Translations under genes and position numbers: made by a program | Assembly: GCA_951828515.1 (NCBI GenBank) | Contig: OX639992.1 | Location: forward strand, 4,256,217 to 4,320,216 | Length of the DNA stretch: 64,000 nt | Reading direction: 5' to 3' | DNA from: an uncultured Poribacteria bacterium | GTDB taxonomy: Bacteria; Poribacteria; WGA-4E; WGA-3G | In this document: positions 3,327 through 47,104 of the stretch, one piece after another | Numbering within the stretch: the stretch's first letter is position 1 | Layout of the letters: the number at the start of each line of letters is the position of its first letter | Notes under the pieces: generated by a model | What the model saw: only the letters and a program-made list of their open reading frames with translations | What the model was told of the DNA's origin: nothing | Databases searched by the model: none

Positions 3327-4826
3327 ATGGCTCATTTTTTTTCTGAAGCAAGCCGGACTTTCAGTGAATACTTGCTTTTACCTAACTTAACGACGAAGGA
3401 GTGCATCCCTGAAAACGTTGTCCTGAGAACGCCTCTCGTGAAGTTTAAGAAGGAACAGGAACCGACACTGGAAGTGAATATTCCGTTTGCCTCGGCAATC
3501 ATGCAAGCCGTTTCGGACCACAACTTGGCAATCGCACTGGCTCGGCAGGGTGGAATATCCTTTATTTATGGCTCCCAAGATATTGAAGAACAGGCAGTAA
3601 TGGTCCGGGCGGTTAAAAACCACAAAGCAGGTTTTGTTGTCAGCGACTCAAATCTGAAGTGTGATAGCACGATAGCAGATGTTGTGAAGTTAACCGAAGA
3701 AACAGGACACTCGACGATCCCTATAACCGAAGATGGTTCGTCTGCCGGAGAGTTATTTGGACTGATAACGGATAAGGATTATAGGTTAAGCCGAGTGGAT
3801 TTAAATACGAAAGTCAGCGAACTGATGACTCCGTTTTCCAAACTGATTGTGGGTCGAAAGGGAATTGCTATTGAGGATGCCAATGACCTCATTTGGGAAC
3901 ATAAGATAAATTGCCTACCGATTGTTGATGAAAATAGGAAACTGGTCCACTTGGTCTTCAGGAAAGATTACGACGACCATAAAAAAAATCCTCTTGAATC
4001 GGTAGATTCTCAGAAAAGACTTGTCGTCGGTGCCGGCATCAATACAAGAGATTATAAAGAAAGGGTACCAGCACTCGTAGCCGCAGGTGTCGATATTATT
4101 TGTGTTGATTCTTCTGAAGGGTATACAGAATGGCAATCAGATACCATTCGATTTATTAAAGATAAGTACAATGATACTGTGAAAGTGGGCGGTGGGAATG
4201 TAGTGCACGGAGATGGGTTTACGTATTTGGTAGAAGCCGGTGCTGATTTTATAAAAGTAGGTATCGGTGGAGGTGCTATTTGTATCACAAGGGAACAGAA
4301 AGGCATTGGGCGTGGGCAAGCGACTGCCGTCATCGAAGTCGCTCAGCAAAGGGACGTGTATTTCAAGGAAACCGGCGTTTACGTGCCAATTTGCTCGGAT
4401 GGTGGTATATTCCAAGATTATCATATCGGTTTGGCACTTGCCATGGGTGCTGATTTCGTGATGATGGGTAGATATTTTGCAAGATTTGATGAGAGTCCAA
4501 GTAAAATAAGAAAATTGGGGATGAATACAGTGAAAGAATATTGGGGAGAGGGAACAAAGCGAGCCGCCAATTGGCAACGTTACCACGAGGGAGGCGGTCC
4601 AGAATTGTTGTTCGAGGAGGGGGCTGATGCTTATGTACCTTATGCAGGAAAGATGAACGATAGTTTGAAAACGACCCTCGCAAAAATCCGATCGCTTATG
4701 TGCAATTGTGGAGCGGTATCCCTACCGGAATTTCGTCAAAAAGCCAGGTTCGTGTTAGTCTCTTCAGCAAGCATCCGTGAAGGCGGTGTTCACGATATCA
4801 TTCCAAGAACGACGCAGGATGGATAA
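3327..4826 (+). CDS. IMP dehydrogenase, Tritrichomonas foetus-like type
   Basis: This 499-residue enzyme oxidises IMP to XMP with NAD+, the committed step of GMP synthesis. The barrel is interrupted by a CBS pair (about residues 95-225; [32 protein letters not shown]). The catalytic loop [20 protein letters not shown] carries the active-site Cys, and NWQRY in the mobile flap supplies the Arg-Tyr pair. These words and the ending MCNCGA...[13 protein letters not shown] match the protozoan T. foetus enzyme much better than ordinary bacterial GuaB, which is encoded separately at 45605. The ribosome-binding site aaaggagg is strong. It lies 2 bp before a SELENON-like gene, so the two are co-transcribed. 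Confidence 0.93.
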
Positions 4827-4828
4827 AA

Positions 4829-6373
4829 ATGAAAACTTTCGACAACAAAATCAATCTCAATCTGGACAGTACCTCAGAAGTCTCCCTCAAAGGGTTCATC
4901 GCTCCCATTGAGCACATGAATCCCAACTTCCATGAAGAATGGGATGCCCTGGCAAATTTTCGTGTTTCTGAACCGGAAAAAGGGTATCCGGTGTCGGTTT
5001 TCCGAGCGTTTCTTCCGAATCAACCTGTCTCCGTTGGGGATTCTTGGCAGATTGACGACCAAGGCGCGCGTGCCTTGCTGAGCCAGTTGCAGCCCAATCC
5101 GAATCTGGATATGCACATTAACGCAGGAGATTCCAGCGGTTTATGGGCATGTCTACGCGCTTACAACGATGAATTCGCTGATATTGTGTTTCGGATCCAT
5201 GCGACATTGGCATTAGAGGACGGTTGGTTCACACCTTCTCAGTTTGCCGGACATCTATTTATCGATCGCATCAAAAAGAGTGTAGCCTCTTTCCAGATGC
5301 GCGTTCCTGAAGGGACACTGTTCGATGTTAATTGGAAAAAAAATAAAGACGATCCTAACTATTTTTATACCACAGGTGGTGGCGTTTGTCCGAAAATTGA
5401 GTTGCTTGCGGAAATGCCAGATGTCACTCAGGAAACCGAGTTCACAACATCAATCACGCGAGAAAAGGCTGAACGCATACTGATACAACGTTTCTATAAG
5501 TCGCAGCAAATCAGCTGGGTGCCATTTGAAGAGGCATCAGAGATATCACAAGCACAGCAGAAACCGATCCATGCCATTTCGGTCGATGGACCGCTCGCCG
5601 ACGAAGCATGCTGAGGAAGCGGCAAAAACTTGAGGGCAGTTGTCCTCTCCGACGATCGAATCATCGAATTCCTAAACGAAAATTTTATCAATATATGGAT
5701 ACGTAATGCCGAGCTTAGACGCATGCGTGATTCCCAAGGATTTGAGGGAATGCCTCCCTTGGCGCGCACAATCATTAGTAACAAATGGCGAAGAGGTCCA
5801 GTAGATGCATGGGTTATATCTCCTGAACTTGAAGCGATAGGACACGTAGCAGTCAATGAATACCTTGACAACAACCGCCGTGAGGATGGGACTTTGGAAA
5901 GTGAGAATTACCTCCTATCTCTCGCGGATGCCTTAGCAGGAAAACTCCCCGGATTCGGGAACACCGTTCTCACACCCGAGCAACCCTCGCAACGGATATT
6001 GGACGTTGTTCGCACCCCAGAATATGGACATCAAGACTACACGGTTGTCGTGATTGACACCACTGCGTTTGAAAGAAGCGGCACACTCGTTATTGATGTT
6101 GAAGTAGGTGATGAGAAGGCGTACGGGTCCTTTCATCTGCTGGATGCTGATCACAGACTTACCTTTGATCCTTATTACAAACGTCCCAAAGGAATCCTGC
6201 TTGAGGAATCGCACGACACAGGTTGGTTGGGTCCCAATGAAACGGGACAAATGATACACCATTTTGAGTGTGGACAGATCTTTAAATTGGTCGCTCTGGG
6301 CTGGGCATCTAACGAGAAAGGAAGCATAAACGCCTTTCACGCAAAAATTTCTGTGAAACCGATAGATTCATAG
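4829..6373 (+). CDS. SELENON (selenoprotein N)-like selenoprotein with in-frame UGA
   Basis: Two open frames, 4829-5614 and 5615-6373, are in the same phase and separated only by a TGA at 5612-5614. Read through as selenocysteine they give a 514-residue protein with Sec at 262 in the motif EACUGSGKNLR. This aligns with the SCUGSGRTLR redox centre of animal selenoprotein N. Homology covers both sides of the TGA: VFRIHATLALED, WFTPSQFAGHLF, VPFEEA and PIHAISVDGPL upstream, and LSDDRIIEFLNENFINIW downstream, which also match SELENON. The Sec-containing part is a thioredoxin fold (residues ~235-390). The C-terminal ~110 residues look like an extra beta domain. There is no signal peptide or transmembrane segment, so it is probably cytoplasmic. 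It is coupled to the upstream IMPDH and ends 6 bp inside a convergent gene. Confidence 0.9.
5612..5647 (+). promoter_or_regulatory. Sec UGA codon and candidate bacterial SECIS hairpin
   Basis: The recoded TGA at 5612-5614 is followed, 17 nt later, by a hairpin: GAGGG (5632-5636) pairs with TCCTC (5643-5647; one G-U) around loop CAGTTG. The loop apex is about 25 nt after the UGA, within the range reported for bacterial SECIS elements read by SelB, and has a G near its 5' side. The element is short, so the call rests mainly on the protein homology across the UGA. Confidence 0.6.
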
Positions 6374-11364: not shown

Positions 11365-14300
11365 CTATCTCAAAATATCCTCGGGTCCATAAGACTCTGT
11401 GAAGGTTGTCCAGATGCCCGTGTGCTTGTCGAAACGACTCAACCCACGATAGGTACCGAACCAGACATAGGGGCTATCCACAGCCATGGAGAGAATACCG
11501 TTATGTGCCAAACCTTCCTCTCGCGTGTAAGTCGTCCAACTATTCGTCAACTGATCAAACCGACTGACCCCGGCATTGTAGGTGCCGATCCATAGCTCTG
11601 TGCCATCAACACCGATAGTGGTAACTTTGTTGCTGGCGAGTCCATCTTCCGTCGTATACGCAGCCCAAACTTCTGTTTTTTCATTATAAAGCGTCACACC
11701 GCGGTCACTGCCAAACCAAACATTGTCGCCATCAATCTCGATACAACTCACTTCATCGCTGGCGAGTCCATCTTCTACTGTAATCGTCTTCCAGATATCC
11801 CGACTGATGTCGTATTGGCTGACCCCGCGACGTGTCCCGACCCAGACGTATTTCTTGCTCGCCGTAATACACCAAATTTGATCGGTAACCAACGATTCGG
11901 CAAACTCTTTGGACACGGCAGACGGTTGGATTTCAGTGCCCGATGTGTAGGTAATCCATGCGTTGAGATCATCCGCTGTGCGGGGGTACTTCCCAATCCC
12001 GGAATTCGTCCCAACCCAGATGCTATCGCCATCGCTGCTGACAGAAGTCACATTATTGGCAGGCAATCCATGCTCAGTTTTGTACTGATCCCACCGCAGT
12101 GCGATTTTATCAAAGCGGTTCGCACCATCCCGCGTACCGACCCAGACGTACTGCTCATCAACCACAATAGAACTCACAACGTCATCGGAGAGACAGTCCC
12201 TCTTTTTCCGTCGATGCTGGTGCCAATGGCCATCGTGGGTTTCTATATTTTCGGAGCCACCCTCCTGCTGATAATTCTTCCAGGTTCCTAAAGCCTTGTC
12301 GTAGCGGGACATACCTTCATCAGTACCGACCCAGACAAAACGCTCATCTGTAGCCACTGTCCGAATGGTACGTCCAACAAGGGTTGGGAGTGCCGTCAAA
12401 GGAGTCCAGGATTCCTTCCGCTTGTCATAACGGGAAAGCCCACGCAAGGTTCCTACCCATACATAATCCTCATCAACTGCAAGCCCATACTCACCCACAT
12501 GGTTATGGAGCAGCCCTTTGATATCTCTAAACGCTGCCCAGGTGCCAGAGGCGAAATGAAATCGTCGAAGCCCACTATTCGGTGCGGCTAACCAGAGATA
12601 ATCCTCGTCGGCAGCCAGTTCGAGCGTTCCGCGTCCCGATCTGATTGTCGTCCACTCCTTGTTCCGTCTGTCATATCGGGTAACACCTACATCTTCCCAG
12701 GGTCTGTAGAGTATCCAAACATCGTTCTCTGTTGCGATAATGCGTCTAATAGTTCTCGCAGCAAGCACGTCATTCGTTGAAAACGTCGTCCATTCTTTTG
12801 TTTTCTTATCGTATCGTGATAATGGACGGTTGCTGCCTCTGTCCCATTCCGAACGCGCAACCCAGACGAAATCGTCATCTACAGTAATCCATTCCCCGCC
12901 TCTACCTGCCAGTCCATCTCTGGGACCAAAATCCTTCCATTCACGGGTAATCTCATTGTAACGAGTCAGTCCACGCCCAGATGCAAACCAGACATTCGGC
13001 CCATCAACCCCAAGTGCCTTTATACGCTCAATCTCGCGGTTATCTTCTTCTTCAACCACTTCCCATGTCCCAGCCGCTTTACTATAATGGTTTAATTCCA
13101 AACCTATCATTGGAATGACCCAGACGCTCTGGTCACTCACAGCAATTTTATTCACATCGTTTGTAGAGAGTCCATCCTCTGTTGTAAAATGCTGCCACGT
13201 ATCCGTGGCTTTATCGTAACGGAGAACACCATAGTCCGTCGTGAACCAGACAGCATCAGTATCCACATGGGTCCAACGTATTAATGTCATGGACCTTTTC
13301 TGAGTGGACTGCAGAATATCTAAGCGCGTGAAACGCCGCCACGTCGCGGTTGAGCGATGGAACCGCACAAGCGCACCGTTCGGCGAATCCCCCCAACTAT
13401 TGAACCAGATGTAATCGCCATCAAACTTGATATTTGAAACCATCGTTTCAAGGAACGGCTCCCGTACCGGACGGGATTGATGTAGCACCTCTCTCCCACT
13501 TTGTGAGTCATATTCAACGAGCCCCGTATCTGTCGCCAACCAAAGTGTTCCATCTGTCTCACACAGGATGTCGCGAACGTTATACGGCACATTTGAGAGA
13601 GAATTCCATGATTTGGAAGCAATCGTGTAGCTTCCAAGCCCTTGCGGGGTGCCGATCCAGAGAATACCATCTCGAAAGGCGAGTGCGGTGACATTGGGCG
13701 ACGGCAATTGGTCATTAAAGGACAGTGAGACCCAACGCTGGCGGGCCTCGTCATATCTTGCAAGACCTTGACGTGTCCCTGCCCAAAGCGTTTGTTCTTC
13801 ATTTTCACCTGTGGAAAGCAGCGCATTAACGTACGGATTCGGCAGACCCTCGGCAACATGATGCATCTGCTTATCGGTGATCGAATACTGCCAAACACCC
13901 TCCGCACCACCAAACCAGACCCTTTCATCACGAGCAATTACGGAGGATATGAGCGGGTTTTTGGGCGTATCTGGCAGCACAAGTTGCATCCATTCTTGGG
14001 AAGTCGTATCATACATCGCAGGACCGGAACTCGTGCCGAGCCAGATGTAGTCGTTCGGCGATGCAGCATCCATATCAACAGACGTTACAAAAGCTTCGCT
14101 AGGAATGGCTCTTGGCTCTCGGCTCTCGGCTCTCGGTGAAGAGGTTTCTGATGCCCCCATACGTTCTTGCTGACGGCTGACTGCTGACTGCCGATTGCTA
14201 TTTTGTGGGGTATGAAATGTCCAATCACCACCCAAATACGTTCGTGTGCCAAGCCCTCGATCGCTTCCAATCCAAACGGATGTTGACTTTCGGCTTTCGG

Positions 14301-15921
14301 AAGAATGGCTTTCGGAAACCATCGACTGTCCGGAACCAGCAGTTTCTGATGAAGTAGAATTTTCTTGCTGACGGCTGACGGCTGACGGCTGATTGCTGTC
14401 TTGCTGACGGCTGACGGCTGACGGCTGATTGCTGTCTTGCTGACGGCTGACGGCTGACGGCTGATTGCTGTCTTGCTGACGGCTGATTGCTGACGGCTGA
14501 TTGCTGTCTTGCTGACGGCTGATTGCTGACGGCTGATTGCTGTCTTGCTGACTGCTGACTGCTGACTGCTGATCGCTAATAAGTATTGACGTGATGTAGC
14601 GGGTCGGCAGTCCATCTTCTCTGGAGATGATTTCCCAACTGTTCGTTTGAGGAGAGTAAATCGAAATCCCCGCAACCGTTGCCGTCCAAATGTTCCCGTC
14701 AGGATCACGTGTTAGATGGCGGACATCGTTATCGGCGAGGAAATCGGATTGCTTGTAAATCGTCCACTCGCCGCTCACTTTATCAAATCGACTCACACCA
14801 TCTTCTTTGCTACCAAACCAAACATCGTTGCCTTGGGTCGTAATCCAACTCACATGATCACTGGACAGTCCGTCTGCCTTGGTGTAATGCACCCACGTAT
14901 TGACAGGCTTAATGAATCGATGTACACCCGCATTAGCAGTCCCAAACCAAACCTGGAATCCATCTGCGCGAATGGAAGTGATCATATTGCTTTTCAGCAG
15001 ATCCGTTTTCGTATATGTTTTGATGAACGTCTGGTCAATTTGGTTGTACTGACTGACACCCTCATCTTCGGTACCAAACCAAACGCTATCATCGTCCACT
15101 GCGATCGTAGCGATCTCGCTGTCTATTAAGCCATCTGACTTCGTATAGTTATTCCAAGAATCGGTGTCTCGATGGTAGCGACTCACGCCACCTCTGCTGA
15201 ACCTCGGATCCTCGTCCCATCCATGCGGATCCGGGTTTATCTCTCTATCCGTGCCGACCCAGACATACTCTGGTTCGACCGCTATGGCTGTAATTACTTT
15301 GCTGACTAAGCCATCTTTCCGGGTACGCACTGCCCAACTGTCAATCGTTTTATCATAACGGTTCAACCCTTCGGATGTCCCAAACCAGACGTAGTTCCCA
15401 TCCACCGCAATCGAGGAGACTTGGTCACTCGCTAAACCATCAATGGTTCGGAAGGTCGCAAAGGTGTTTGTTTGCATGTCGTAGCGACTCACGCCTTCAT
15501 CCGTGGCGAACCAGACCCATTGCCCATCAACCGCGACAGCATTCACCATATCGTTCGACAACCCATCTTCCATCGTATAGTGAAGCCACTGATCCTGCTG
15601 GCGGTTCCAGCGTGTAACGCCCCTCGCTGTCGCAATCCATACATTTTCTGAGTCCGCAGCAATACAGTTAACTTCATTACTAACGAGTGTCCGTTCCACG
15701 GGCCACGTCTTTTTGGCGCGTGAATCTGCATCAGAATCTTCAAACGGAAGGTTGGATTGCTGATCGGTCATTAAGGGACCACACCCTATAATCACAAAGT
15801 GGGAAATCAATAACAAAGCACACGCAATAAAAGCTGTGTGCGAACATTTAATGCTGAGTCCGACAATCCGAAGGTTATTTTTCTCTGATAGATTCATCAT
15901 TTCTATCGCCGTCCTTTTCAT
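11365..15921 (-). CDS. Giant beta-propeller lipoprotein (Reg_prop-type repeats)
   Basis: This 1518-residue protein begins with a hydrophobic signal ending in the lipobox IIGC (Cys at about residue 47), so it is probably an outer-membrane or periplasmic lipoprotein. Nearly all the rest is ~40-residue repeats of the pattern VWFGT-GVSRYD-W-YTxxDGL-xxxVxxIAVD, the two-component-regulator-propeller (Reg_prop) repeat, enough for several seven-bladed propellers. No histidine-kinase or output domain follows, so it is a free propeller, perhaps for ligand or glycan binding. Residues ~450-620 are interrupted by a low-complexity stretch made of QQDSNQPSA(I/V)SR units, which derive from an intergenic DNA repeat. 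An alternative start is the Met at residue 8. Confidence 0.8.
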   Translation of the reverse strand: MKRTAIEMMNLSEKNNLRIVGLSIKCSHTAFIACALLLISHFVIIGCGPLMTDQQSNLPFEDSDADSRAKKTWPVERTLVSNEVNCIAADSENVWIATARGVTRWNRQQDQWLHYTMEDGLSNDMVNAVAVDGQWVWFATDEGVSRYDMQTNTFATFRTIDGLASDQVSSIAVDGNYVWFGTSEGLNRYDKTIDSWAVRTRKDGLVSKVITAIAVEPEYVWVGTDREINPDPHGWDEDPRFSRGGVSRYHRDTDSWNNYTKSDGLIDSEIATIAVDDDSVWFGTEDEGVSQYNQIDQTFIKTYTKTDLLKSNMITSIRADGFQVWFGTANAGVHRFIKPVNTWVHYTKADGLSSDHVSWITTQGNDVWFGSKEDGVSRFDKVSGEWTIYKQSDFLADNDVRHLTRDPDGNIWTATVAGISIYSPQTNSWEIISREDGLPTRYITSILISDQQSAVSSQQDSNQPSAISRQQDSNQPSAISRQQDSNQPSAVSRQQDSNQPSAVSRQQDSNQPSAVSRQQENSTSSETAGSGQSMVSESHSSESRKSTSVWIGSDRGLGTRTYLGGDWTFHTPQNSNRQSAVSRQQERMGASETSSPRAESREPRAIPSEAFVTSVDMDAASPNDYIWLGTSSGPAMYDTTSQEWMQLVLPDTPKNPLISSVIARDERVWFGGAEGVWQYSITDKQMHHVAEGLPNPYVNALLSTGENEEQTLWAGTRQGLARYDEARQRWVSLSFNDQLPSPNVTALAFRDGILWIGTPQGLGSYTIASKSWNSLSNVPYNVRDILCETDGTLWLATDTGLVEYDSQSGREVLHQSRPVREPFLETMVSNIKFDGDYIWFNSWGDSPNGALVRFHRSTATWRRFTRLDILQSTQKRSMTLIRWTHVDTDAVWFTTDYGVLRYDKATDTWQHFTTEDGLSTNDVNKIAVSDQSVWVIPMIGLELNHYSKAAGTWEVVEEEDNREIERIKALGVDGPNVWFASGRGLTRYNEITREWKDFGPRDGLAGRGGEWITVDDDFVWVARSEWDRGSNRPLSRYDKKTKEWTTFSTNDVLAARTIRRIIATENDVWILYRPWEDVGVTRYDRRNKEWTTIRSGRGTLELAADEDYLWLAAPNSGLRRFHFASGTWAAFRDIKGLLHNHVGEYGLAVDEDYVWVGTLRGLSRYDKRKESWTPLTALPTLVGRTIRTVATDERFVWVGTDEGMSRYDKALGTWKNYQQEGGSENIETHDGHWHQHRRKKRDCLSDDVVSSIVVDEQYVWVGTRDGANRFDKIALRWDQYKTEHGLPANNVTSVSSDGDSIWVGTNSGIGKYPRTADDLNAWITYTSGTEIQPSAVSKEFAESLVTDQIWCITASKKYVWVGTRRGVSQYDISRDIWKTITVEDGLASDEVSCIEIDGDNVWFGSDRGVTLYNEKTEVWAAYTTEDGLASNKVTTIGVDGTELWIGTYNAGVSRFDQLTNSWTTYTREEGLAHNGILSMAVDSPYVWFGTYRGLSRFDKHTGIWTTFTESYGPEDILR
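14365..14578. repeat. Intragenic 36-bp tandem repeat derived from intergenic repeat
   Basis: About five 36-bp units built from gctgacggctgattgctgtctt and close variants encode the 12-residue period QQDSNQPSA(I/V)SR in the propeller gene. The words ctgactgctgactgct are the same as those in the intergenic repeat at 25980-26010. Another copy of the same family (ggctctcggctctcgg...gctgactgctgactgc) lies at 14105-14195 in the same gene and encodes PRAESREPRA. Confidence 0.85.
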
Positions 15922-45604: not shown

Positions 45605-47104
45605 ATGGAGACAAAAATTTCCGATGTCTTCCCCCCGAAATTTGCAAAAGAAGGGCTAACTTTCGACGATGTTTTGCTAATTCCGGCTGAATCGGACGTG
45701 CTACCAGATCACGTAGATACGAGTACACAACTGACACGGAATCTCCAGTTGAACATTCCTATCTGTAGCGCGCCTATGGACACTGTCACGGAATCTACGC
45801 TTGCTATTGCGATCGCACGTGAGGGAGGCATCGGGATAATTCACTATAACTGCCCTATTGATGAGCAGGTATCTGAAGTCGACCAAGTGAAACGATCGGA
45901 AAGCGGTATGATTACCGCACCGATTACGCTGACGCAGGATAAGACAATTCGCGATGCTTTAGATATAACAGCACGTTACCGCATCGGGGGTGTCCCTATC
46001 GTGACGGACGATGGTTACCTCGTCGGCCTCATTACTAACCGAGATCTCAAGTACGAAGACAATCTGGAACTCCCTGTAACCGCCCGAATGACACCGGGTG
46101 AGAAACTCATTACCGCATCCCCAGGCATTACGCTGGATAAAGCCAAAGCAGTGCTCCATAAATCTCGAAAAGAAAAATTACCGATTGTAGATGACGATTT
46201 TCGACTTTGCGGACTGATTACTATTAAAGATATTGACAAAGTCCAGATGTTTCCGCAAGCGTGTAAGGACGGTGCCGGACGTTTACGCGTTGGTGCCGCT
46301 GTACTGCCTTCAACACCCTTGGAGAACGTTGACCGATTAGTGGGGGCTGGTGTGGATGTGCTCGTATTGGACACAGCACATGGACATTCCAAAAACGTTA
46401 TCCGATCAGCAGAGTACGTTAAGACCCATTTTCCAGACGTTGAACTTGTCGCTGGGAATGTTGTTACACCGGAAGGGACGCGGAGTCTCATTGATGCAGG
46501 GGCAGACGCAATAAAGGTTGGTGTTGGTCCCGGTTCTATCTGCACAACCCGTATCGTGGCAGGCGTTAGTATTCCGCAAATTACAGCGATTTACGATTGT
46601 GCCAAGGAAGCCGATAAATCAGGTGTACCGATTATTGCCGATGGTGGTATTCGCTATTCTGGGGACATTGCGAAAGCCATTGGTGCGGGCGCGAGTTCTG
46701 TAATGATCGGTAGTTTGCTTGCTGGGACGGACGAGAGTCCCGGGGATACTGTCATCTATCAAGGGAGAACATATAAGATGCACCGCGGAATGGGGTCATT
46801 AGGCGCGTTACGGAAACGAAGTGCCCAACGTTCAGAGGAGAGTAGCGAAGATCTTTCCAAACTTGTCCCCCGTGGGATTGAGGGACGTGTTCCACATAAA
46901 GGGAAACTCAGCAGTTTTGTGTATCAGTTGGTCGGTGGCATCCGCTCAGCAATGGGGTATTGCGGTGCTTCGGACATTGAGACATTACGTAGGAATAGCC
47001 AATTTGTACGGATGTCAAGTAGTGGCTACCGGGAAAGCCATCCCCACGATATCGATATAACCGAGGAAGCACCAAACTATACGGTAGCGAACCTTTCTCC
47101 GTAA
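45605..47104 (+). CDS. guaB: IMP dehydrogenase, canonical bacterial GuaB
   Basis: This 499-residue enzyme from the ATG at 45605 has [20 protein letters not shown] as a normal N-terminus; the frame opens at 45539. A barrel with two CBS domains (~95-215), the catalytic loop [20 protein letters not shown] (active Cys) and the flap YRGMGS-like [13 protein letters not shown] place it with GuaB. It makes XMP for GMP synthesis. It is the second IMPDH of the window; the Tritrichomonas-type one is at 3327. Confidence 0.96.

Follow-up and report, generated by a model that had tools for sequence, protein, structure and literature searches.

A probable bacterial selenoprotein N gene with an in-frame UGA codon, next to a second IMP dehydrogenase in a Candidatus Poribacteria genome

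Positions 4829-6373 of the window very probably encode a bacterial selenoprotein N (SelN), a homologue of animal SELENON in which the UGA codon at 5612 would be decoded as selenocysteine (Sec) and whose product is likely a selenol/thiol oxidoreductase. The window is the whole stretch of DNA analyzed here, 64,000 nucleotides in length (G000:C1:4256217-4320216), and lies within the 5.85 Mb genome, a single contig, of a sponge-type bacterium (Candidatus Poribacteria). The locus comprises the following features.

3327-4826, plus strand: second IMP dehydrogenase (IMPDH; PRK07107 / Tritrichomonas type), whose stop lies 2 bp ahead of the SelN start
4829-6373, plus strand: predicted SelN (SELENON-like) selenoprotein gene of 514 residues, with Sec as residue 262 and the TAG stop included
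4829-5428, plus strand: N-terminal region (residues 1-200), built largely of beta strands in the predicted model
5495-5944, plus strand: predicted thioredoxin-fold domain (residues 223-372), in which helix 266-274 closely follows Cys261-Sec262
5612-5614, plus strand: UGA codon probably read as Sec, adjoining Cys261 (ACUGSG); UGA in 102/102 homologues, with the sel machinery in the genome
5632-5647, plus strand: bSECIS hairpin inside the coding frame, with stem 5632-5637/5642-5647 and tetraloop AGUU at 5638-5641
5972-6370, plus strand: C-terminal beta-sandwich domain (residues 382-514), which neither the human SELENON sequence used here nor the short SelN of family f2 possesses

The initial annotation had described two same-phase ORFs parted by a single TGA within a redox motif, and this description holds. 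ORFs 4829-5614 and 5630-6373 share one frame and are split by the TGA at 5612-5614, which is the lone in-frame TGA of the joint product (P0001, 514 residues) and falls at codon 262 in the context ...GPLADEACUGSGKNLRAVVL.... Both motifs quoted at the time, WFTPSQFAGHLF and IIEFLNENFINIW, are found in this read-through product. The ATG at 4829 is preceded by an AGGA 9 bases upstream, and the gap of 2 bp to the IMPDH, which ends at 4826, is as had been reported. A tRNA scan of the window found none, Rfam gave nothing over the window and, close to the UGA, a 5.8S hit that is ascribed to chance, and a scan for consensus promoters and terminators returned a number of sites not above that in shuffles. 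A search of phages, plasmids, and viral contigs found no relative and no sign there of a mobile carrier. Elsewhere in the window, a 1518-aa ORF on the minus strand (11365-15921) contains many propeller-like repeats (VWFGT...) and, internally, QPSAISRQQDSN-like units in tandem.

Homology to SELENON had been claimed for both sides of the UGA, and it runs continuously through this codon. The human SELENON core matched a profile of 68 bacterial proteins with an E value of 5e-52 (163 bits), and P0001 as a single sequence matched the core at 7e-35; neither a reversed copy nor any of 200 shuffled copies, included as controls, was reported in the search. The human letters used in these comparisons are taken to be those of SELENON. 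The sequence ends at residue 590 with Sec at 462, and it has Arg at positions 291 and 466 as published (PMC8967691). When aligned to it, P0001 is identical at 94 of 303 residues, and the human Arg291, Gly315, Cys461, Sec462, and Arg469 are shared by 104/104 bacterial cores. The change Arg291Gln has been published in patients (PMC8967691), and c.943G>A, which is cited as disease-associated (PMC12839072), falls in SELENON codon 315. The position of human Arg466, which is also changed in patients, is occupied by Lys in bacteria.

The part shared with animal SELENON is the luminal portion that follows the EF-hand, and the homology extends across the Cys-Sec motif (Cys-Sec-Gly in both) and the thioredoxin-like domain; in the N-terminal region of SelN, the homology to the SELENON part following the EF-hand begins at about residue 46. 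While animal SELENON features an EF-hand (PMC7474598), none was found in P0001, which matches no Pfam family up to E 0.1 and whose homologous stretch begins after the human EF-hand part. For this reason, calcium sensing is not claimed for bacterial SelN. The window SelN further differs from animal SELENON in its bacterial-type hairpin within the reading frame, its additional C-terminal beta-sandwich, and its many copies per genome. It may also differ in membrane anchoring, as no hydrophobic stretch that could form a type II anchor was evident at the N-terminus by eye. From its sequence, then, the window SelN resembles SELENON in the redox core and not in calcium sensing. Bacterial SELENON homologues had been mentioned as reported from Poribacteria when the stretch was first read, and the host does belong to this group.

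The decoding of the UGA as Sec is supported by the gene content of the genome. A search for the sel genes, which had been proposed as a check, found all of them in the same genome: selA (594 bits), selB (347 bits), a tRNA-Sec (selC; 78 bits) approximately 180 bp downstream of selB, and selD (359 bits), which itself carries one in-frame UGA. Across the phylum, selA scored above the cut-off in 72 of 85 genomes and SelN occurs in at least 65 of the 85. Comparison of the UGA position in related genomes found the codon kept within CU[GA][STN]G in every one of 102 non-identical homologous genes spanning the site, a set that was drawn from the fetched loci and in which SelN copies within arrays are not independent. 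No form with Cys at the Sec position was present among the matches listed. One SelN copy (L112, G037:C82:175889-177466) has TCA (Ser) in place of Sec and Glu in place of the next Gly, with the hairpin sequence kept, and is perhaps a recently changed copy. In a codon-wise comparison with six orthologues, dN/dS was 0.12-0.23 before the UGA and 0.14-0.32 after it; these values indicate that purifying selection acts after the UGA as it does before it. Together with the UGA in all 102 homologues, they place read-through far beyond chance.

Translation with table 11 yields two ORFs at this locus, and the fold at the UGA taken alone is not significant, as would be expected if the UGA simply ended translation and 5630-6373 were either a gene of its own or a nonfunctional remnant. 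We consider this very unlikely, because SELENON homology crosses the UGA, dN/dS is alike on both flanks, the UGA recurs in approximately 100 genes and the sel genes are present, and no homologue was seen in which the halves of SelN form two separate genes at this site. The chance that UGA has been reassigned to Trp or Gly in this host, such that residue 262 is not Sec, is smaller still and close to nil: some bacteria do reassign UGA to another amino acid, but here it stops 4 of the 24 long ORFs in the window and terminates many SelN genes, which argues that it is not a reassigned codon, and nearly all SelN copies among the matches listed carry a single in-frame UGA, at the redox site, in a genome with the full Sec pathway.

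Sec decoding of UGA 5612 also finds support in the RNA that follows it. Bacterial SECIS elements are characterized by a small apical loop with a G at position 1 or 2, at roughly 16-37 nt from the UGA. At this locus, an in-frame hairpin lies downstream of the UGA, with a loop G; its loop starts 24 nt after the UGA and its 6-bp stem starts 20 nt after the first UGA base. A bSECIS-type hairpin had been proposed in the initial annotation, and the proposal stands by comparison across homologues, although the element is smaller in extent (5632-5637 paired with 5642-5647, loop 5638-5641). Folding of 5612-5650 alone, which had been proposed as a check, did not reveal it (z of -0.24, not better than shuffles), and single-sequence folds of longer stretches were likewise no better than shuffles. 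A longer stem beginning at the UGA was also considered, and is broken in many homologues.

The consensus fold across 86 different sequences, which come from related and thus not independent genes, features a 6-bp stem and a loop of A-G-[GU]-U, with the loop G in 86/86 and stem pairs in which both partners are replaced (G-C by A-U, U-A, or C-G). In a count subject to the same relatedness, 104 of 111 sequences retain a stem, whereas 4.75 would be expected to do so when these peptides are recoded synonymously. Some of the sequences that break the tetraloop rebuild the 6-bp stem with a hexaloop, or form a 7-bp stem. Furthermore, the third bases of codons 270 and 271 lie in the hairpin loop, and no other fourfold sites in the gene are as conserved: these codons are the sole fully fixed columns of 157 with enough fourfold codons (median column 0.53), in a contrast where the rest of the gene shares the same relatedness. 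At loci L083 and L115-L144, selD is itself a selenoprotein gene, and the region after its UGA differs and does not have the AG[GU]U loop in common with SelN. An AGGU loop follows the UGA of selD in the window genome; it was dropped as a control for the hairpin because it was not conserved in 30 other selD genes.

Given this comparative evidence, the ribosome would read UGA 5612 as Sec by means of the hairpin at 5632-5647 together with SelA, SelB, SelD, and tRNA-Sec. What the product may do is suggested by its predicted structure. Pfam and NCBIfam hold no family for P0001, and a PDB search by sequence returned nothing for P0001 and one chance match (E 0.33) for the family profile. The AlphaFold model of P0001 has a pLDDT of 82.5 and a pTM of 0.73. 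A Foldseek search with the full-length model (514 residues) found nothing convincing over the entire chain, and only the domain-wise comparison was informative. In that comparison (VIA-align), residues 223-372 matched thioredoxin-fold proteins with Z of 10.3-12.1, led by DsbH (2ju5, Z 12.1), AGR3 (3ph9, 11.7), and ERp19 (1sen, 11.6), and including AGR2; the C-terminal beta-sandwich (approximately 382-514) had many middling structural matches. Cys261-Sec262 is placed in the model between strand 247-252 and helix 266-274, which is the active-site place of the predicted thioredoxin fold. The window SelN is like DsbH, AGR2, AGR3, and ERp19 in the fold of this domain and in having a redox motif at the corresponding place, and unlike them in having no Pfam match and an adjacent Cys-Sec instead of CxxC.

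The predicted thioredoxin fold suggests that Cys261-Sec262 most likely acts as a selenol/thiol oxidoreductase reducing oxidised cysteines. Electrons may be exchanged with thioredoxin-like or peroxiredoxin-like partners, to which the AhpC/TSA-fused members of the family described below point. The product is most likely cytosolic, since no hydrophobic signal-like stretch was seen at the N-terminus when the sequence was read by eye.

The gene upstream of SelN had been described as a protozoan-type IMPDH, and the assignment is borne out. The enzyme, which is 499 residues long, scores 868.6 bits on NCBIfam PRK07107 (cut-off 585), and its best solved full-length match is 1ak5, presumably the Tritrichomonas foetus IMPDH, at 698 bits compared to approximately 268 bits for ordinary bacterial IMPDHs. 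Alike in these scores to the Tritrichomonas type, it differs in being present in addition to a canonical guaB and in having SelN directly downstream. The canonical guaB lies at 45653-46990 of the window on the plus strand (598 bits to TIGR01302), and the SelN-linked enzyme is thus the second IMPDH of the genome. In a survey of 25 genomes at a threshold of E <= 1e-100, PRK07107-type IMPDH was found in 13, all belonging to the genus of the window, and in 0/9 tested genomes of other genera, though SelN is present in these. In each of the 13 genomes, the IMPDH and SelN are same-strand neighbors, separated by 1-3 bp in 12 genomes and by 228 bp in one (G050). Sequence ahead of the IMPDH could be aligned only poorly, except for a GGAGGA ribosome-binding site. 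These arrangements support a coupling of SelN to IMPDH within one genus. At a further locus (L146, G082:C1:3782600-3788500), the reading frame of the first SelN after the IMPDH changes at around residue 251, shortly ahead of the UGA site, through a frameshift or an assembly error.

Because SelN lies directly behind the IMPDH, the two are probably co-transcribed and co-translated, and at a guess SelN may keep the catalytic cysteine of the neighboring IMPDH reduced. Protection or redox control of this cysteine could even be the main job of SelN, as the same-strand pairing in 13/13 IMPDH-holding genomes (12 at 1-3 bp) and the presence of canonical guaB, which makes the linked IMPDH an extra enzyme, would suggest. 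This is possible but doubtful, since most SelN copies are not beside a PRK07107-type IMPDH, none of the nine tested genomes of other genera holds one, and the IMPDH may simply head an operon.

The likely selenol/thiol oxidoreductase of the window is one of several SelN types. By count of search matches, the window genome contains eight UGA-bearing SelN genes, and up to 22 SelN matches, many in tandem, occur in other genomes among the matches listed. The window SelN belongs to a large clade, type A, while human SELENON, a single row in the tree, falls together with the small clade of type B (split 100/99); as the human branch is long, the exact place of human SELENON is unsure. Type B members include L077 in the window genome (901-2625 on the minus strand, G000:C1:1513055) and L098 (775-2628 on the minus strand), both of which are fused at the C-terminus to an AhpC/TSA domain (72-75 bits). 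These fused proteins are of the same family as the window SelN and have the UGA in the same place, with one copy in the window genome; they differ from it in their clade and in the AhpC/TSA domain. Family f2 consists of short SelN without the C-terminal beta-sandwich domain, and tandem short SelN of approximately 370 aa without this domain are seen at seven loci in G013 and G014 (L090, L091, L096, L097, L102, L103, and L108).

At two places in the window genome, SelN genes adjoin ECF sigma factors (L080, G000:C1:3613271 region; L078, G000:C1:2540177 region). The sigma-factor ORFs are 442-455 aa long, with sigma-70 regions 2 and 4 and a hydrophobic stretch, and end in the SelN C-terminal beta-sandwich domain. 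Such sharing by adjoining genes could mean that the beta-sandwich enables this type of SelN to act as a sensor or carrier, reporting to ECF sigma factors that are anchored in the membrane and bear the same domain. We regard this role as improbable: domain sharing does not show interaction, no ECF sigma gene of this kind was seen beside the window SelN, and the short SelN of family f2 is without the domain.

SEPN1 work by Marino et al. in 2015 reportedly mentioned a Poribacteria homologue fused to AhpC, and the bacterial SelN family is therefore probably already known in outline; among the papers searched, none joins Poribacteria with selenoprotein N. What looks new is the expansion of type A, the mapping of the bSECIS, the coupling to IMPDH, and the domain shared with sigma factors. 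A 2025 paper reporting Sec-containing SelO in bacteria as new does not name SelN (PMC12013277), nor does a 2026 review of prokaryotic selenoproteins (PMC13188914). In sponge metagenomes, SelA is found together with SelB in the majority of symbiont bins from several phyla, and most close references of these bins lack them (PMC5649159), a co-occurrence with which the sel machinery of the window genome fits.

Taken further than we would readily wager on, Poribacteria might run an expanded SelN redox system, with many arrayed paralogues under the control of membrane-anchored ECF sigma factors that bear the C-terminal domain of SelN. One type of SelN would be tied by translational coupling to the second IMPDH, as its dedicated partner, and would maintain the catalytic cysteine of that enzyme in the reduced state. 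If true, the ancient function of SelN would be the repair of oxidised enzyme thiols and not calcium sensing. Loss of SELENON causes human myopathies, and to our knowledge its reaction and partners are unsettled. Bacterial SelN could serve as a simple model for this poorly understood human protein: a soluble-looking SelN that retains the Cys-Sec pair and human positions affected in patients, and has no EF-hand, would set the redox core apart from calcium sensing. It would also ease structure determination and enzymology in a family where neither P0001 nor the family profile has a solved relative by sequence. The AhpC/TSA fusion, the coupled IMPDH, and the domain-sharing ECF sigma factors each offer a testable partner for SelN.
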